From Candidatus Gemmiger stercoripullorum (GTDB lineage: Bacteria > Bacillota > Clostridia > Oscillospirales > Ruminococcaceae): a DNA stretch of 48,606 bases. Both the position numbers and the translations under genes were made by a program. Every line of letters begins with the position of its first letter. Positions within the stretch are counted from its first letter, which is position 1. The notes beneath the pieces were generated by a model. That model did not search any database, was not told the DNA's origin, and saw nothing but the letters and a program-made list of their open reading frames with translations. Positions 6,969-13,169 of the stretch are shown here, in pieces. The stretch covers positions 1 to 48,606 of the forward strand of contig DWXD01000003.1 of the NCBI GenBank assembly GCA_019119365.1. Reading direction: 5' to 3'.

Positions 6969-7832
6969 ATGATGTCAACTTACAACATGGACGTTGAACC
7001 CGGCAGCCGCTGGCTGCATGTAACGCCCGGCGCTTCCACCGGCCAGCCCTACTACTGCACCGAAGTCGGCTCCTTGGCGGCCCGCGCACAGTTTGAGGCG
7101 ATCCGCTGCGCCAAAGACGGGTATCTGCTCATCCGCACGCGGCAGGGGGCCGGCTTTGTGGAACAAAACGAGTTCCAGGTTTTGCTGGAGCCGGGCATGG
7201 CGCTGCTGCTGGACTGCGGTCTGCCGCAGGTTTTCCGCGCGGCGGACGGCCGCACGCCGTGGCATTTTGACTTTGCCCACATTGAAGGCCCGGGGGTAGA
7301 CACGCTGGACGCGGTGATCCGCCCCAACCGCCGCCCCGGCGCGCAGGCGCTGCCCGGCGCGGAGTACGACGAACTGTTTGAGGAACTGCTGGCCTGCGCG
7401 CAGCAGGAATCGGCCGAGAGCGCGGTGCGCACGGGGCTGGCCATCCACAGCCTGCTGGCCGCCATGGCCCGGCAGCAGCTTTCGCTGGAGGCGGACAAAC
7501 CCACCCGCCGCCTGATCGAGCGCAGCGCCGCGTATCTGCGCGAGCACTGCTGCGAGGCGCTGAACCTGGACGATATCCTGGCCGGGGCCAACATGAGCCG
7601 CAGCTATTTCATGAAACTGTTCCGCCAGTATATGGGTACGACGCCGTACAACTATATGCTGTGCTTCCGCATCACACGGGCCAAGGAGCTGCTTTCCCAG
7701 ACCGATCTGCCGGTCAGCACCATCGCGCGGCAGACCGGCTTTGCGGACGACAGCAATTTTTCCACCCGCTTTGCCGCCATGGTCGGGGAAAGCCCGATCC
7801 GCTTCCGCAAAAATGCCCTGAGGTCAAAATGA
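6969..7832 (+). CDS. AraC family transcriptional regulator
   Basis: The product is 287 residues. GAAAGGAG lies about 10 bases before tandem ATGs at 6969 and 6972, and either could be used. The N-terminal half (about 15-110) looks like an AraC-type cupin ligand-binding domain. Residues about 183-282 contain the two helix-turn-helix units of AraC/XylS, with NLDDILAGANMSRSYFMKLF and the signature end PVSTIARQTGFADDSNFSTR. Such proteins usually activate sugar or stress genes. The ligand is unknown, and the convergent asparaginase is not an obvious target. Confidence 0.9.
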   Translation: MMSTYNMDVEPGSRWLHVTPGASTGQPYYCTEVGSLAARAQFEAIRCAKDGYLLIRTRQGAGFVEQNEFQVLLEPGMALLLDCGLPQVFRAADGRTPWHFDFAHIEGPGVDTLDAVIRPNRRPGAQALPGAEYDELFEELLACAQQESAESAVRTGLAIHSLLAAMARQQLSLEADKPTRRLIERSAAYLREHCCEALNLDDILAGANMSRSYFMKLFRQYMGTTPYNYMLCFRITRAKELLSQTDLPVSTIARQTGFADDSNFSTRFAAMVGESPIRFRKNALRSK

Positions 7833-7906: not shown

Positions 7907-8902
7907 TCATGCCAGGTCGAACTGGACCGGGGTCAGGAACAGGCGGGCGGCTTCGTCGCGGCCGCGGGCCTGGCCCAGCGCCCACATCAGCTTGACGGCG
8001 GCGGCTTCGGGCGTCATATCCCGCGCTTCCACCACGCCGGGCAGGGCTTTGGCGGCGCGGCCGACCTCGTACACGCCGAGGTCGCTGCCCTCGTGCGGGA
8101 CCTGGGTCGTGAACACGGCCAGCCGCCCGGCCGCGCACCAGTCGCGCACGGCCGCAAACAGCGCGCCTTCGTCGCCGCCGGGCAGCCCGCCGACGCCGAA
8201 GCTTTCCAGAATCAGCGCGTCGCAGTGCCCGGCCAGCAGCGGGATGATGTCCGCCCGCATGCCGGGGACCAGCCGCAGCACAAAAACGGCGGGGTCGAGC
8301 TTTTCATAAAACTGCGCGGCGCCGTACCCGGGCGGGCAGGGCAGGAACGGCACAAGGCGCAGATCGCGGAATTCGGCCGTGCAGGGGTAGTCGATGCTGG
8401 AGAAGGCGTTGAAGCTCTTGGTGCGGGTCTTGCGCGCGCGGGTGCCGAGGATGACCTTGCCGTCGAACACGAGCTGCACGCCCCAGGCCGCCGGGTGGCA
8501 GGCGTAAAGCACGGCGCGGTGCAGGTTGTTGCGCGCGTCGGTGTCACGGCTGTAGATGGACTTCTGGCTGCCGGTGAGCACGACCGGCTTGGCGCTGCGC
8601 TGGATCATATAGGACAGCGCCGCCGCGGTGTAGGCCATCGTGTCGGTGCCATGGGTGACGACAAAACCGTCGTATTCGTCATAATGGCGGCGCACGGCGG
8701 CCGCGATGCCCGCCCACTGCGCAGGGCCGATGCTGGTGGAGTCAAGGTTATAGAGCTGCACGGCGTCGATGCGGCAGACATCGGCCAGCTCCGGCACGCA
8801 GGCCAGCAATTCGGCCGAGGTCAGCGCCGGGGCCAGCGCGCCGGCGGCTGTCGGGCGGCTGGCGATGGTGCCGCCGGTGGCGATGAGAAGGATACGTTTC
8901 AT
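7907..8902 (-). CDS. ansA: Type I L-asparaginase
   Basis: The product is 331 residues without a signal peptide, so a cytoplasmic enzyme hydrolysing asparagine to aspartate and ammonia. It has both signature motifs: ATGGTIAS at the N-terminus (nucleophile Thr12) and THGTDTMAYT (Thr86, Asp87). VLTGSQ follows, as in the AnsA branch. The gene stands alone, with its own promoter, divergent from the BlaI-type regulator. An archaeal-type glutamyl-tRNA amidotransferase subunit D is less likely because the extra N-terminal domain is absent. Confidence 0.92.
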   Translation of the reverse strand: MKRILLIATGGTIASRPTAAGALAPALTSAELLACVPELADVCRIDAVQLYNLDSTSIGPAQWAGIAAAVRRHYDEYDGFVVTHGTDTMAYTAAALSYMIQRSAKPVVLTGSQKSIYSRDTDARNNLHRAVLYACHPAAWGVQLVFDGKVILGTRARKTRTKSFNAFSSIDYPCTAEFRDLRLVPFLPCPPGYGAAQFYEKLDPAVFVLRLVPGMRADIIPLLAGHCDALILESFGVGGLPGGDEGALFAAVRDWCAAGRLAVFTTQVPHEGSDLGVYEVGRAAKALPGVVEARDMTPEAAAVKLMWALGQARGRDEAARLFLTPVQFDLA

Positions 8903-8981: not shown

Positions 8982-9011
8982 TTGACAGGCGCAGGTCTAC
9001 CGTGATAGACT
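8982..9011 (+). promoter_or_regulatory. Promoter of the BlaI-M56/M23 operon
   Basis: Consensus TTGACA (8982-8987), 18-base spacer, TAGACT (9006-9011). The -10 is contained in the first operator palindrome, as expected for an autoregulated repressor gene. Confidence 0.75.
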
Positions 9012-9038
9012 TTAGATGATAAGTCTATTGCGATAGAC
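8995..9038. promoter_or_regulatory. Double palindromic operator for the BlaI-type repressor
   Basis: Two copies of GTCTA-N6-TAGAC occur at 8995-9010 and 9023-9038, separated by 12 bases, and the outer flanks AGG and CCT extend the symmetry. The first covers the -10 box; the second covers the likely transcription start and early leader. Paired dyads at the promoter are typical of BlaI/MecI repressors; the half-site here is the local version. Binding itself is inferred. Confidence 0.75.
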
Positions 9039-9082: not shown

Positions 9083-9463
9083 ATGATGAAAAAACCTTTG
9101 AGCCTGGCCGAGGGCGAATACCGCTTTGCGGCGCTGGTGTGGGCCAACGAACCGCTGTCAAGCGGGCAGCTTGTGCGGCTGGCCGCCGAGGCGCTCGGCT
9201 GGAAAAAGAGCACGACGTATACGGTGCTGAAAAAGCTGTGTGAACGCGGCATCCTGCTTAACGAGGGCGGCGCCGTGACCGCGCTCATCAAGCAGGACGA
9301 AGTGCAGCGGCAGACCAGCGCCGCCGTGGTGGAGCGCACGTTCGGCGGCAGCCTGCCGCGGTTCGTGGCCGCGTTTTTGAACGAGAAACCGATCAGCGAG
9401 AGCGAGGCGGCGCAGATCCGCGCGCTGCTGGATGCCGCACAGCGGCGGGAGGAAGACCCATGA
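9083..9463 (+). CDS. BlaI/MecI/CopY family transcriptional repressor
   Basis: The product is 126 residues, a usual BlaI length. The winged helix is in the first ~75 residues, with the recognition region SSGQLVRLAAEALGWKKSTT and the wing CERGILLNEGG. The C-terminal helices serve dimerisation. AAGGGAG lies before tandem ATGs at 9083 and 9086. The stop overlaps the start of the M56/M23 gene by four bases, matching the blaI-blaR1 arrangement. It probably represses its own operon through the two upstream palindromes and is removed when the neighbouring protease is activated. Confidence 0.92.
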   Translation: MMKKPLSLAEGEYRFAALVWANEPLSSGQLVRLAAEALGWKKSTTYTVLKKLCERGILLNEGGAVTALIKQDEVQRQTSAAVVERTFGGSLPRFVAAFLNEKPISESEAAQIRALLDAAQRREEDP

Positions 9464-11379
9464 CCGCATTTTTGCTCTACCTGCTGAAAGCCGGGGCGGC
9501 AGGCGGCGCGGCGGCGCTGGCCGCCTGGGCGCTGTGCGCGCTGCTGCGCAAAGCGCGCACCCCGGGCTGGCTGCTGTGCGCCGTGTGGCTGGCCGTGGGG
9601 CTGCGGTTTGCCGCGCCGGGCGGGTTGATCCCCGTGGCGCTGCCGCGCCCGCAGAACCCCGCGCTGGCCGGGGCCGCCGCAGCCGTGACCGAAGCGGCAA
9701 AGACGCTGGCCGCCGCCCCGGCGCAAACCGGCCGGGCGCTGACGCTGGTGCGCCTGGAAGCGGCGGAAGCCGCCCCCGCCGCGGCCCTGCCGGGCCCGGC
9801 TTTCTGGGCCGCGCTGCTCTGGATGGTTGGCACGGCCGTGCTGCTGGCGCGGGCGGTGTACAGCCACGCGCGGCTACGGCGGCAGGTGGCGCTGGCCTGC
9901 AAAACGGCGGACGGCTGCTACACCTGCGAAGCGGTGCGCACGCCGTTCACGCTCGGCATGCTGCGCCCGCGCGTCTACCTGCCGCCCGGCCTGCAGGGGC
10001 ACGACCGCGCCGCCGTGCTGCGGCACGAGCGCACCCACATCCGCCGCGGCGATACGCTGACCAAACCGCTGTTTTATGCGCTGGCGTGCCTGCACTGGTG
10101 GAACCCGCTGGCCTGGCTGGCGCTCCGCCAGTTTGAGCGCGCGGCGGAGCAGGCCTGCGACGAGGCCGCCGTGCGCGGGGCCACCCCCGCCGAGCGGACC
10201 GCCTACTGTGAAAGCCTGCTGCGCTTTGCGGTGCGCGGCGGCACGCCCGGGGCGCTGGCGTTCGGCCAGGGCGGCGTGCGCGGGCGCATTTTGCACGCGC
10301 TGCGCTACCGTGCGCCGGGGCGCACGGCGCTGGCGCTGTGCGCGGCGGCCGCCGTGCTGGCCGGGGCCATGCTGCTGGCGCAGCCGACGCTGGCCGAAGC
10401 GCCGCGGGCCCCGGCGGCCACCCCCTCCCCCGCCCCGACGGCAGCCCCGGCCGCAACGCCCGCCCCGGCGGCGCAAGCCGCGCAGGCCGCGGCGTTCGAG
10501 CCCGGGACAGGGTTCGCGCTGCCGGTCGAGTATAACTATATTATCTGCTTTTACAACGTCCTTTATCACAAGGGCGACGACCTGGCCGCCGCCAAGGGCG
10601 CGCCGGTGACGGCGGCCGCAGGCGGCACGGTGACGGAGGCCGGGTTCCATTACGCCTACGGCAACTATGTCATCATCGACCACGGGGCCGACGCCGAAGG
10701 CCACACCTGGCAGACGCTGTACGCGCACCTGGACACCATCGACACCGAAACCGGGCAACAAACCGCCCAGGGGGACAGGATCGGCACGGTGGGCAGCACC
10801 GGGAACTCGACCGGCAACCACCTGCATTTTGAGATCCGGCGCGACGGCGCGCTGATGCCGCCGCAGTTCTTCCTGCCGTATTCCGGCACGCTGCTGGGGC
10901 AAAAGGACCAGAACAGCGGCCTGCTGGACCTGCTGCGCGACCCGGCGATGCTGCAGATCGCCATAGAAAAGGCGGGCGCACAGAACCTGGCGTTTGACGG
11001 GCGGCTGACCGCCCCATCGGAAATGTACCTGTCTGTCAGCAGCGCGTTCAGCGATGCGCACACGGGCCTGGACCTGGCCGCCGATGAAGGCGCGCCGGTG
11101 CGCGCCGCAGCCGGCGGCGTGGTGCTGGCCGCCGGCTACGACTGGGACATGGGCAACTATGTGCTGCTGTACCACGGCACGGGGGCGGACGGGCGCGCCT
11201 GCGCCACGCTGTACGGCGCCATGCAGGCACAGGGCCTGCCCGCGCCGAGCCAGACCGTGGCGGCGGGCGAAGAGATCGGCCGCTGCGGAAACAGCGGCCG
11301 CAGCACGGGACCGCACCTGCATGTGGAGGTGTGGCTGGACGGCGCGCCCGCCGACCCGGCAAAACAGATGGAGCTTTGA
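9460..11379 (+). CDS. BlaR1-like M56 protease fused to two M23 (LytM) domains
   Basis: The product is 639 residues. The N-terminal ~305 are a BlaR1/MecR1-type membrane protease: hydrophobic segments at about 3-30, 36-52, 115-132 and 288-306, and the M56 zinc motif HERTH (189-193) with downstream QACDEAA. A Pro/Ala linker (about 312-345) leads to two M23 modules instead of the usual penicillin-binding sensor. Module 1 has all ligands: HKGDD (370-374), YAHL (His423) and HLH (454-456). Module 2 keeps HTGLD (534-538) and HLH (619-621) but has YGAM where YAHL is expected, so it has lost a catalytic His. An upstream GGGAGGAA site supports the start. It likely senses cell-wall fragments or damage and cleaves or signals to the BlaI-type repressor; that role is inference. 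Confidence 0.88.
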   Translation: MTAFLLYLLKAGAAGGAAALAAWALCALLRKARTPGWLLCAVWLAVGLRFAAPGGLIPVALPRPQNPALAGAAAAVTEAAKTLAAAPAQTGRALTLVRLEAAEAAPAAALPGPAFWAALLWMVGTAVLLARAVYSHARLRRQVALACKTADGCYTCEAVRTPFTLGMLRPRVYLPPGLQGHDRAAVLRHERTHIRRGDTLTKPLFYALACLHWWNPLAWLALRQFERAAEQACDEAAVRGATPAERTAYCESLLRFAVRGGTPGALAFGQGGVRGRILHALRYRAPGRTALALCAAAAVLAGAMLLAQPTLAEAPRAPAATPSPAPTAAPAATPAPAAQAAQAAAFEPGTGFALPVEYNYIICFYNVLYHKGDDLAAAKGAPVTAAAGGTVTEAGFHYAYGNYVIIDHGADAEGHTWQTLYAHLDTIDTETGQQTAQGDRIGTVGSTGNSTGNHLHFEIRRDGALMPPQFFLPYSGTLLGQKDQNSGLLDLLRDPAMLQIAIEKAGAQNLAFDGRLTAPSEMYLSVSSAFSDAHTGLDLAADEGAPVRAAAGGVVLAAGYDWDMGNYVLLYHGTGADGRACATLYGAMQAQGLPAPSQTVAAGEEIGRCGNSGRSTGPHLHVEVWLDGAPADPAKQMEL

Positions 11380-11385
11380 TCTTGT

Positions 11386-12612
11386 ATGAAAACGCGTTCC
11401 CTTTTGCGCCGCAGCACGGCGGCGCTGGCCGCTGCCCTGCTGCTGGCCGCCTGCCCGCCGCGGGCGCTGGCTACGACCCAGCAGGAGCTGCAGCAGCAGA
11501 TGGAAACCGCCAAAGAAGAATATGAGCAGGCCGCCGAGCACCAGGAGCAGGCGGAGGAGCAGGTCGAAAGCGCAAAGCAGAATATCGCCAGCCTGGAGGC
11601 CCAGGCGGCCGACATACAGGCCCAGCTTTCCGCCATATACGACGAACTGCAGCAGGCCAAAGCGGAGCGCGACGCCGCCGAGGGCGAGGCCGAAGCCGCC
11701 GCCCGCGCGCTGGAAGAAAAACAGGCCGAGTTTGACGCGCAGTTTGCCAGCGCCCAGAGCCAGCTGCGCGCGATCCAAAAGCTGCAGCACGGCGGCAGCG
11801 TAACGCTGCTGAGCCAGGCCGGGAACTGGTTCCAGGCGCTGACCTGCGGCCGGGTGCTGGACGCGCTGATGGGCTACAGCAGCCGCCTGCTGGCCGATTT
11901 GGACGCGCAGGCCCGGGAACTTGACGCGCAGCGCCTGGAAGCCGAAGCCGCGGCCGAGCGCGCCCGCGCCGCGCAGGAGCGGCTGGAGGCCAGCGAGGCC
12001 AGCCTGAACGCAACCAGCGCCAAGCTGGCCGCCGCCCTGCAAGCCTCCAACGCCGACCTGAGCGACTACCAGGCCGAGGCCGAAGCGGCGGCCCAGCTGA
12101 CCGAGGTGGCCAAACGCGCCTACCAGGAGGCCACGGCGGCGCTGGACAACTTTGCCCGGCAGCAGAACGAGAAATATTCGACGCCCGACCTTTATTGCAG
12201 CCTCAATTTCGGCCCGCCGCTGGCCTCCGGGTTCCGCATCAGCTGCTATTACGGCGCGCCGGACGGCATCGACGGCTCGCACCACAACGGCACCGACTTT
12301 GCCGCGCCGGGCGGCACGCCGATCTATGCGGTGGCGGACGGCGTCGTGAGCGCCGCGCGCAGCATGCGCAGCTACGGCAACTGCGTGCAGATCAGCCACG
12401 GCACGGCCGACGACGGCAACAACTACGCCACGCTGTACGCGCATATGTCCTCGATCTCGGTGGCCGAGGGCCAGAGCGTGAGCAAGGGGCAGACCATCGG
12501 CTATGTCGGCAACACGGGCGACGTTGTCGGGCGTAACGGCGGCTACCACCTGCACCTGGAGCTGCGCATCAACGGCAGCCGCACCGACGCGCTGAGCTAC
12601 ATCCCCTATTGA
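11386..12612 (+). CDS. EnvC-like coiled-coil M23 peptidase, probable lipoprotein
   Basis: The product is 408 residues. The basic N-terminus and hydrophobic stretch end in LLLAAC, a good lipobox, so the protein is probably lipid-anchored outside the membrane after cleavage before that Cys. A long Gln/Glu/Ala-rich coiled coil covers about residues 30-250. A C-terminal M23 domain follows with HHNGTD, YAHM and HLHLEL intact, so it should be an active peptidoglycan endopeptidase, or an EnvC-type amidase activator if activity is low. It starts 6 bases after the M56/M23 stop and belongs to the BlaI operon, so induction by wall stress is likely. Confidence 0.88.
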   Translation: MKTRSLLRRSTAALAAALLLAACPPRALATTQQELQQQMETAKEEYEQAAEHQEQAEEQVESAKQNIASLEAQAADIQAQLSAIYDELQQAKAERDAAEGEAEAAARALEEKQAEFDAQFASAQSQLRAIQKLQHGGSVTLLSQAGNWFQALTCGRVLDALMGYSSRLLADLDAQARELDAQRLEAEAAAERARAAQERLEASEASLNATSAKLAAALQASNADLSDYQAEAEAAAQLTEVAKRAYQEATAALDNFARQQNEKYSTPDLYCSLNFGPPLASGFRISCYYGAPDGIDGSHHNGTDFAAPGGTPIYAVADGVVSAARSMRSYGNCVQISHGTADDGNNYATLYAHMSSISVAEGQSVSKGQTIGYVGNTGDVVGRNGGYHLHLELRINGSRTDALSYIPY

Positions 12613-12663: not shown

Positions 12664-12699
12664 TATCTGAACCCCCAAGCATTTTGGGGTTGTCAGATA
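12664..12699 (+). repeat. Inverted repeat in the Lrp/AsnC leader
   Basis: TATCTGA pairs with TCAGATA, and inside them ACCCCCAA with TTTGGGGTT, giving a near-continuous 36-base hairpin that ends about 5 bases before the ribosome site GGGGAGGTG. It may be an operator for autoregulation or a translational control hairpin; it lacks a T-run, so it is not a terminator. Confidence 0.6.
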
Positions 12700-12719
12700 C
12701 GCCCGGGGAGGTGTTTGCC

Positions 12720-13169
12720 ATGGACCGCATAGACCGGAAGATCATTGACATCCTGCAAAAGGACGCCCGCGCGCCGCTGAAGGAGATTGCCGACCGCGTA
12801 TTTCTTTCCAGCCCGGCTGTGTCGGCGCGCATTGCGCGGCTGGAAAAGGACGGCCTGCTGACCGGTTACAGCGCCCGGGTGGACGCCGCCCGGCTCGGGT
12901 ACCTTGTCAAGGCGTTCATCAACCTGGACATGGACCCGCAGCGCAAGCCGGAGTTTTACCCCTACATTGAAAGCTGCCCCAACGTGGTGGAATGCTGCTG
13001 CGTGACCGGCGACTACAGCATGCTGATCGAGGTACTGTTCGCAACGACACAGGAGCTGGACGCCTTCATCAACCGCCTGCAGCAGTTCGGGCGCACCCGC
13101 ACGCAGATCGTGTTTTCGACCAGCGTCGAGCACCGCGGCGTGCCGGTGGACAGCGAGCCGGATGTGTAA
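12720..13169 (+). CDS. Lrp/AsnC family transcriptional regulator
   Basis: The product is 149 residues from the ATG at 12720, with a strong GGGGAGGTG 8-16 bases upstream. It has an N-terminal winged helix-turn-helix (about 3-60, DRIDRKIIDILQKDARAPLK, SPAVSARIARLEKDGLLTGY) and a C-terminal RAM domain (about 65-140). The RAM domain binds small effectors, usually amino acids, and drives oligomerisation. The length is normal. It is monocistronic. The regulated pathway cannot be told from the context. Confidence 0.92.
   Translation: MDRIDRKIIDILQKDARAPLKEIADRVFLSSPAVSARIARLEKDGLLTGYSARVDAARLGYLVKAFINLDMDPQRKPEFYPYIESCPNVVECCCVTGDYSMLIEVLFATTQELDAFINRLQQFGRTRTQIVFSTSVEHRGVPVDSEPDV

Follow-up and report, generated by a model that had tools for sequence, protein, structure and literature searches.

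M23 domains in the sensor position of a candidate BlaI/BlaR1-type switch for wall hydrolases in Candidatus Gemmiger stercoripullorum

Among described systems, the BlaR1-BlaI pairs of Staphylococcus aureus and Bacillus licheniformis place blaI beside the gene of an M56 membrane protease that carries a penicillin-binding sensor. The locus considered here lies in a 48,606-nucleotide stretch of Candidatus Gemmiger stercoripullorum (GenBank assembly GCA_019119365.1, contig DWXD01000003.1), hereafter the window, and encodes a BlaI-family repressor followed by a membrane protein that joins an M56 region to two M23 domains (Table 1). With BlaR1-BlaI it shares blaI beside an M56 gene, the HEXXH and ExxxD motifs together with equivalents of Asp210 and Tyr261, four predicted membrane segments, a conserved Phe in BlaI and a paired putative operator 5' of blaI. 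It differs in having one or two M23 domains, depending on the relative, instead of the penicillin-binding sensor, and M23 wall hydrolases as the genes marked by the operator. We regard it as moderately probable that the locus is an autoregulated BlaI/BlaR1-type switch, whose sensor consists of M23 domains with preserved zinc sites and which has the M23 wall hydrolases of the same cell as its targets; regulation through BlaI, the ligand, the polarity of the response, operator binding and cleavage of BlaI are what we infer from sequence and by analogy.

The M56-M23 fusion itself is not new, as section 10 of an M23 review (PMC9662197) lists M56 as one of the other catalytic domains that accompany M23 (jointly less than 1% of its hits) and refers the reader to BlaR1 and MecR1. 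That passage concerns the same two domains and is silent on operon, regulon, residue pattern and function. A search of open-licence papers likewise found no function, operon, targets or residue pattern for M56-M23 proteins, for which we take 'M23/M56 family metallopeptidase' to be the RefSeq name. By analogy, the nearest functional parallel to the proposed switch is WalRK of Bacillus subtilis, in which a membrane sensor also tunes the level of the wall endopeptidases CwlO and LytE; however, as the relevant part of PMC7299342 describes it, WalRK is a two-component kinase system sensing D,L-endopeptidase products, whereas here BlaI and an M56 protease would take this role. Control of wall endopeptidase genes would fit the position of the putative sites upstream of M23 genes. 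The WalK model found nothing over its cut-off in the 35 genomes of the genus and gave sub-cut-off matches in all 35, among the matches listed, so that a diverged WalK is possible.

Table 1. Features of the locus, in window coordinates
Feature	Position	Strand	Remarks
Promoter-like site TTGACA-18-TAGACT	8982..9011	+	consensus scan, 10/12 matches; weak evidence alone; overlaps operator 1
Operator 1 (putative) GTCTACCGTGATAGAC	8995..9010	.	16-base inverted repeat; motif also 5' of blaI in relatives
Operator 2 (putative) GTCTATTGCGATAGAC	9023..9038	.	16-base inverted repeat; motif also 5' of blaI in relatives
BlaI-family repressor, 126 residues	9083..9463	+	Pfam Penicillinase_R; alignment with structures of MecI and BlaI
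M56-M23-M23 membrane signal protease, 639 residues	9460..11379	+	single intact gene
M56 (BlaR1-type gluzincin) region, residues 9-261	9484..10242	+	profile match; BlaR1 fold match, residues 4-274
HERTH zinc-protease motif, residues 189-193	10024..10038	+	further residues kept: E230, D234, D198 and Y249
Last membrane segment, residues 289-307, leading outside (predicted)	10324..10380	+	from hydropathy (2.25) and the charges on either side
First M23 domain, residues 350-474, complete (H370 D374 H423 H454 H456)	10507..10881	+	
Second M23 domain, residues 514-637, zinc triad kept, YxH His replaced by A587	10999..11370	+	
Coiled-coil M23 hydrolase, 408 residues, complete motif	11386..12612	+	third operon gene

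The M56 region belongs to Pfam PF05569 (120.3 bits against a cut-off of 31), and H189, E190, H193, E230, D234, D198 and Y249, invariant in 13 aligned proteins, correspond in the profile alignment to H201, E202, H205, E242, D246, D210 and Y261 of BlaR1, the active-site residues being those given in the relevant part of PMC9834060. No penicillin-binding (SXXK) sensor domain was found, as only M56 and M23 matched at E-values up to 0.1, and the NCBIfam model blaR1_generic scored 52.8 bits against a cut-off of 400, with the match confined to residues 155-308. Hydropathy, charges and superposition of residues 4-274 on BlaR1 predict four membrane helices, with the protease inside and the sensor outside. 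The repressor carries a Penicillinase_R domain (67.9 bits against 22.6) next to the M56 gene, and its VAAF sequence is conserved in all 23 BlaI proteins of the genus that were aligned. This makes cleavage at A97|F98 possible by analogy; the conserved Phe presumably occupies the cleavage position of BlaR1-BlaI systems. An earlier note on this stretch had described an intact blaI-blaR1 layout, with a four-base overlap of the two genes, the HERTH motif and a pair of operators, and a tandem M23 sensor replacing the penicillin-binding domain; both descriptions hold, the 3' end of blaI indeed overlapping the start of the fusion gene by 4 bases. The third gene of the operon and the candidate regulon go beyond that note.

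The fusion was found in at least 24 of the 35 genomes of the genus, 11 of them with the tandem form (including G018, cut by a contig end), which rules out the frameshift or assembly join of two genes that the earlier note had named as what would undo its reading. The same note had raised the question of whether such fusions always sit beside BlaI: they do in all 24 fusion genomes of the genus, and in 24 of 24 loci examined outside it, drawn from 13 genera (23 from the family sample, plus L093). Further fusions occur in other genera of the family sample (396 genomes), among the matches listed. The order sample (394 genomes, E-values up to 1e-55) gave a single match outside the family, in G723, a candidate fusion judged by the span of its match (model positions 69-486), and the class sample (391 genomes, up to 1e-60) returned only the window's own genome, at cut-offs that miss diverged fusions. 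In that genome (2,196,883 bases, 70 contigs), the fusion gene is the sole Peptidase_M56 match, and the five named relatives that have its closest proteins (L011-L015) are labelled Gemmiger.

The putative operators suggest a link to wall hydrolases. The sequence GTCTAYNNNRNTAGAC (GTCTA-N6-TAGAC) is present in 26 of the 35 genus genomes, where its matches, collapsed by hand, mark 39 promoter regions. Of these, 23 precede blaI (22 from a scan with a start-codon rule, plus the blaI locus of G025, counted from separate inspection), 14 precede an M23 gene without blaI (13 plus G004, which the start-codon rule missed) and two precede neither, at 3-78 bases from the start by a simple rule. Nine of the 14 M23-only regions lead into a coiled-coil M23 gene that has another M23 gene behind it; L228, where this second gene was checked, shows a G5 domain in it. 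The other five lead into M23 genes of another type, three of which were checked and carry G5 (L224, L226, L232). A reversed-pattern control gave 35 matches, and none of the 29 checked as loci contained an M23, BlaI or M56 open reading frame. In the window, the coiled-coil gene starts 6 nucleotides past the stop of the sensor gene. Twelve genomes have it in this place of the operon, and nine others have it elsewhere, with an operator of its own; no genome belongs to both sets, as far as downstream sequence was covered (all but G004 and G018). Of the 11 genus genomes lacking the fusion, 10 gave no match to the BlaI of the window, and the site is absent from nine of these 10. Most of the 11 are incomplete, three of them reaching 90% completeness or more with low contamination, and two, G010 and G021, contain other members of the BlaI family. 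Only within this genus is the operator evidence strong.

In the window's own genome, a second target is likely from the sequence, namely the gene for a G5 and M23 protein of L232 (contig C26, 219-1805), just upstream of which stands a lone operator-like GTCTAGTGGAATAGAC (1864-1879, 58 bases to the first ATG). Two other sites of this genome, C32:2834 (inspected by eye) and C33:39439, showed no M23 open reading frame in the locus. A wider regulon based on a looser motif was dropped, as matches with up to two mismatches (7 and 6 on the two strands) stood near the control level (5 and 6), and only sites with both GTCTA arms were therefore used. Of six other M56 loci of the genus, three have TCTACA-N2-TGTAGA in its place and three have no such site. 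Sites of the TCTACA-N2-TGTAGA form lie in L104, L105 and L106, loci of this genus where BlaI is paired with an M56 protein that has no M23.

Could the locus be an ordinary responder to beta-lactams or other wall antibiotics, with M23 in the place of the penicillin domain and drug defence as its output? Known systems do use a BlaI/M56 pair in this way (PMC9834060, in the part concerned), but, judged on the sensor and the operators, the absence of a detectable penicillin-binding domain and the position of 37 of the 39 operator-bearing promoter regions before blaI or an M23 gene make this very improbable. The earlier proposal that the transducer reads peptidoglycan rather than beta-lactams gains support from the same observations and from the retained BlaR1 active-site residues, as far as sequence can inform on it.

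The M23 domains themselves were compared residue by residue. As had been noticed earlier, the first window domain retains all zinc and catalytic residues (HDHHH), and the second lacks the YAHL histidine, an alanine taking its place (HDAHH). Among the rows with all five positions, the zinc triad is kept in 57 of 63 fused M23 domains and in 45 of 46 free-standing ones. Two of 65 fused and two of 48 free-standing rows were left out for missing positions; the rows without a full triad are L084, L098 and one hit each of L130 and L152, which lack the motif, L138 and L151, with one ligand changed, and, among the free-standing ones, L108. Within the zinc-intact sets, a catalytic His is missing in 23 of 57 fused versus 0 of 45 free-standing domains; these counts include near-identical relatives, except where one sequence lay within another. 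A, G, S, Q, C, L, V or F stands in place of the first His of HxH, and A or Q in place of the YxH His, and the losses sit on separate branches of the M56 tree. Taken together, the distribution of the operators and this pattern of loss strengthen the idea of a wall sensor.

Regulatory M23 folds are also known from Csd1-Csd2, which pairs a hydrolase with a degenerate protein, and from EnvC, NlpD and DipM, but these are not fused to a signalling protease, and the fused domains here keep their zinc ligands. The degenerate activators of the EnvC/NlpD type have generally lost the zinc site, whereas both window domains retain the triad. In the corresponding part of the M23 review (PMC9662197), such proteins have incomplete catalytic residues and/or no zinc. 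By this parallel, the fused M23 could serve as a docking platform for a partner (an amidase, FtsEX or another M23 protein, as with EnvC, NlpD and Csd2), whose state the switch would read. Pure docking would not need the zinc ligands, which are kept in 57 of the 59 motif-bearing fused domains, and we consider this explanation quite unlikely.

A precedent for substrate holding comes from Pgp3 of Campylobacter jejuni, whose two mutated histidines, H216 and H247, align with the pair that varies in the fused domains (numbering offset of 19, by hand). Pgp3 is an enzyme and its mutants were made in the laboratory, whereas the changes in the fused domains are natural. In the part of PMC6978369 that bears on this, the active site of the H247A form (the HxH His) was occupied in crystals by a pentapeptide, and also by a cross-linked tetra-tri peptide; H216A was not taken on to substrate complexes there. 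Since the lost residues match this catalytic pair, and H247A holds substrate analogues, binding of substrate by the broken fused domains is plausible by analogy.

All ten complete tandem proteins have exactly one complete M23 domain, namely the first in the window protein and in G032, and the second in the eight others. The earlier suggestion that the second domain may only bind thus fits the family pattern, but the broken domain is not fixed in position, being the first one in eight of the ten. Reciprocal inactivation was dropped as a statistical claim, because the ten proteins represent about three lineages and chance could explain the pattern. Five pairs drawn from the eight reverse-type proteins gave ratios of non-synonymous to synonymous substitution rates (dN/dS) of 0.15-0.21 for the broken first domain; for the second domain they were 0.20-0.30 in three pairs, and the other two were nearly identical there (0 and 0.37, with dS below 0.1). 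Constraint on the broken domain is clearer in these pairs than in the window lineage, where it exists but is loose. Several single-M23 fusions have, as judged by eye, a Q/E-rich coil-like tail behind M23.

Several observations weigh against a wall-sensing switch. As regards the operator, G001 (83% complete) has sites at the M23 operon yet no BlaI match, G031 has the fusion without such a site at blaI, and outside the genus TCTA-N6-TAGA occurs in just eight of 24 fusion loci and one of eight M56-only loci; in the window's own genome, this loose form has fewer matches per strand (4) than the reversed pattern used as its control (7). In L222 (G012, contig C225, 2232-3475), the operator is kept, but BlaI is followed by a 275-residue membrane M23 protein lacking the M56 catalytic core. 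As regards the domains, the Fisher value for the loss of the catalytic His (1.3e-7) ignores relatedness, the change in the second window domain corresponds to H216A of Pgp3 and not to the substrate-complex mutant H247A, and dN/dS between the window genome and G032 is 0.45 for the broken second domain, 0.32 for the first and 0.42 for M56. Furthermore, 34 of the 57 zinc-intact fused domains are catalytically complete, including the first of the window, so that the protein may also be an enzyme. This agrees with an alternative in which M23 is a working, membrane-anchored endopeptidase, M56 only controls BlaI or sheds the enzyme, and sensing occurs elsewhere; the one complete domain in every complete tandem protein, which in the window lineage is also the more constrained of the two, points the same way. 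Such a hydrolase would not account for the fusions without any complete domain (G002, G003, G031 and others outside the genus), for the constraint on the broken first domain in the five pairs of other lineages, or for the loss of a residue that is never lost in the free-standing M23 domains of the examined loci, and we find it unlikely on balance.

For the switch that we favour, the following sequence of events can be proposed. The M23 part, outside the cell, would dock cross-linked peptidoglycan stems or their cleavage products in the M23 groove, and the signal would travel via the last membrane helix to the M56 site. By analogy with BlaR1, M56 would then cleave BlaI near A97|F98. BlaI is expected to bind the GTCTA-N6-TAGAC operators, and its cleavage would derepress the sensor operon together with the coiled-coil M23 and G5-M23 hydrolases, which would provide feedback control of wall cutting; the whole may thus, judging from sequence, act as a self-regulating thermostat. 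The BlaI of Bacillus licheniformis, which according to the part of PMC3305447 concerned responds to a peptidoglycan dipeptide, offers a precedent for a wall signal reaching BlaI. The tandem form, with one complete and one broken M23 domain, would allow for a live/dead comparator, in which the complete twin cuts the cross-link, the broken twin only holds it, and the receptor weighs cuttable against bound wall and adjusts the level of the cell's M23 hydrolases accordingly through BlaI. This refinement is speculative and rather unlikely; if true, a natural substrate-holding mutant would have evolved several times, with the broken twin swapped.

With regard to the surroundings of the locus, a type I asparaginase gene (7907-8902, minus strand), an AraC-type regulator (6969-7832, plus strand) and an Lrp/AsnC-type regulator (12684-13169, plus strand) are the neighbours in the window, with no sign of operon membership. 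Profiles of defence systems matched neither the sensor nor BlaI, and weak matches on the downstream coiled-coil gene were set aside. Elsewhere in the sample, the M56-M23 gene of L129 (G221, contig C4) is broken by an in-frame TAG into two open reading frames, while L125 and L128 of the same genus are unbroken. A second M56 gene lies directly behind the fusion in L099 (G022, contig C3) and L100 (G002, contig C127), one of the two having a broken M23 (LLH) and the other no M23 that was found. The 275-residue protein of L222 matches the initial part of M56 weakly and also has an M23 domain.

If the proposed switch is real, the BlaR1 chassis, known as a drug sensor, would also carry a wall sensor derived from an endopeptidase and governing endopeptidases. 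The bacteria concerned live in the gut, and none of the matches listed for the canonical WalK model exceeds its cut-off in them. The predictions can be tested directly: operators and targets are specified, and certain residues are lost in nature much as in known laboratory mutants. More generally, single M23 domains would make it possible to test how bacteria measure the cross-linking of their own wall.
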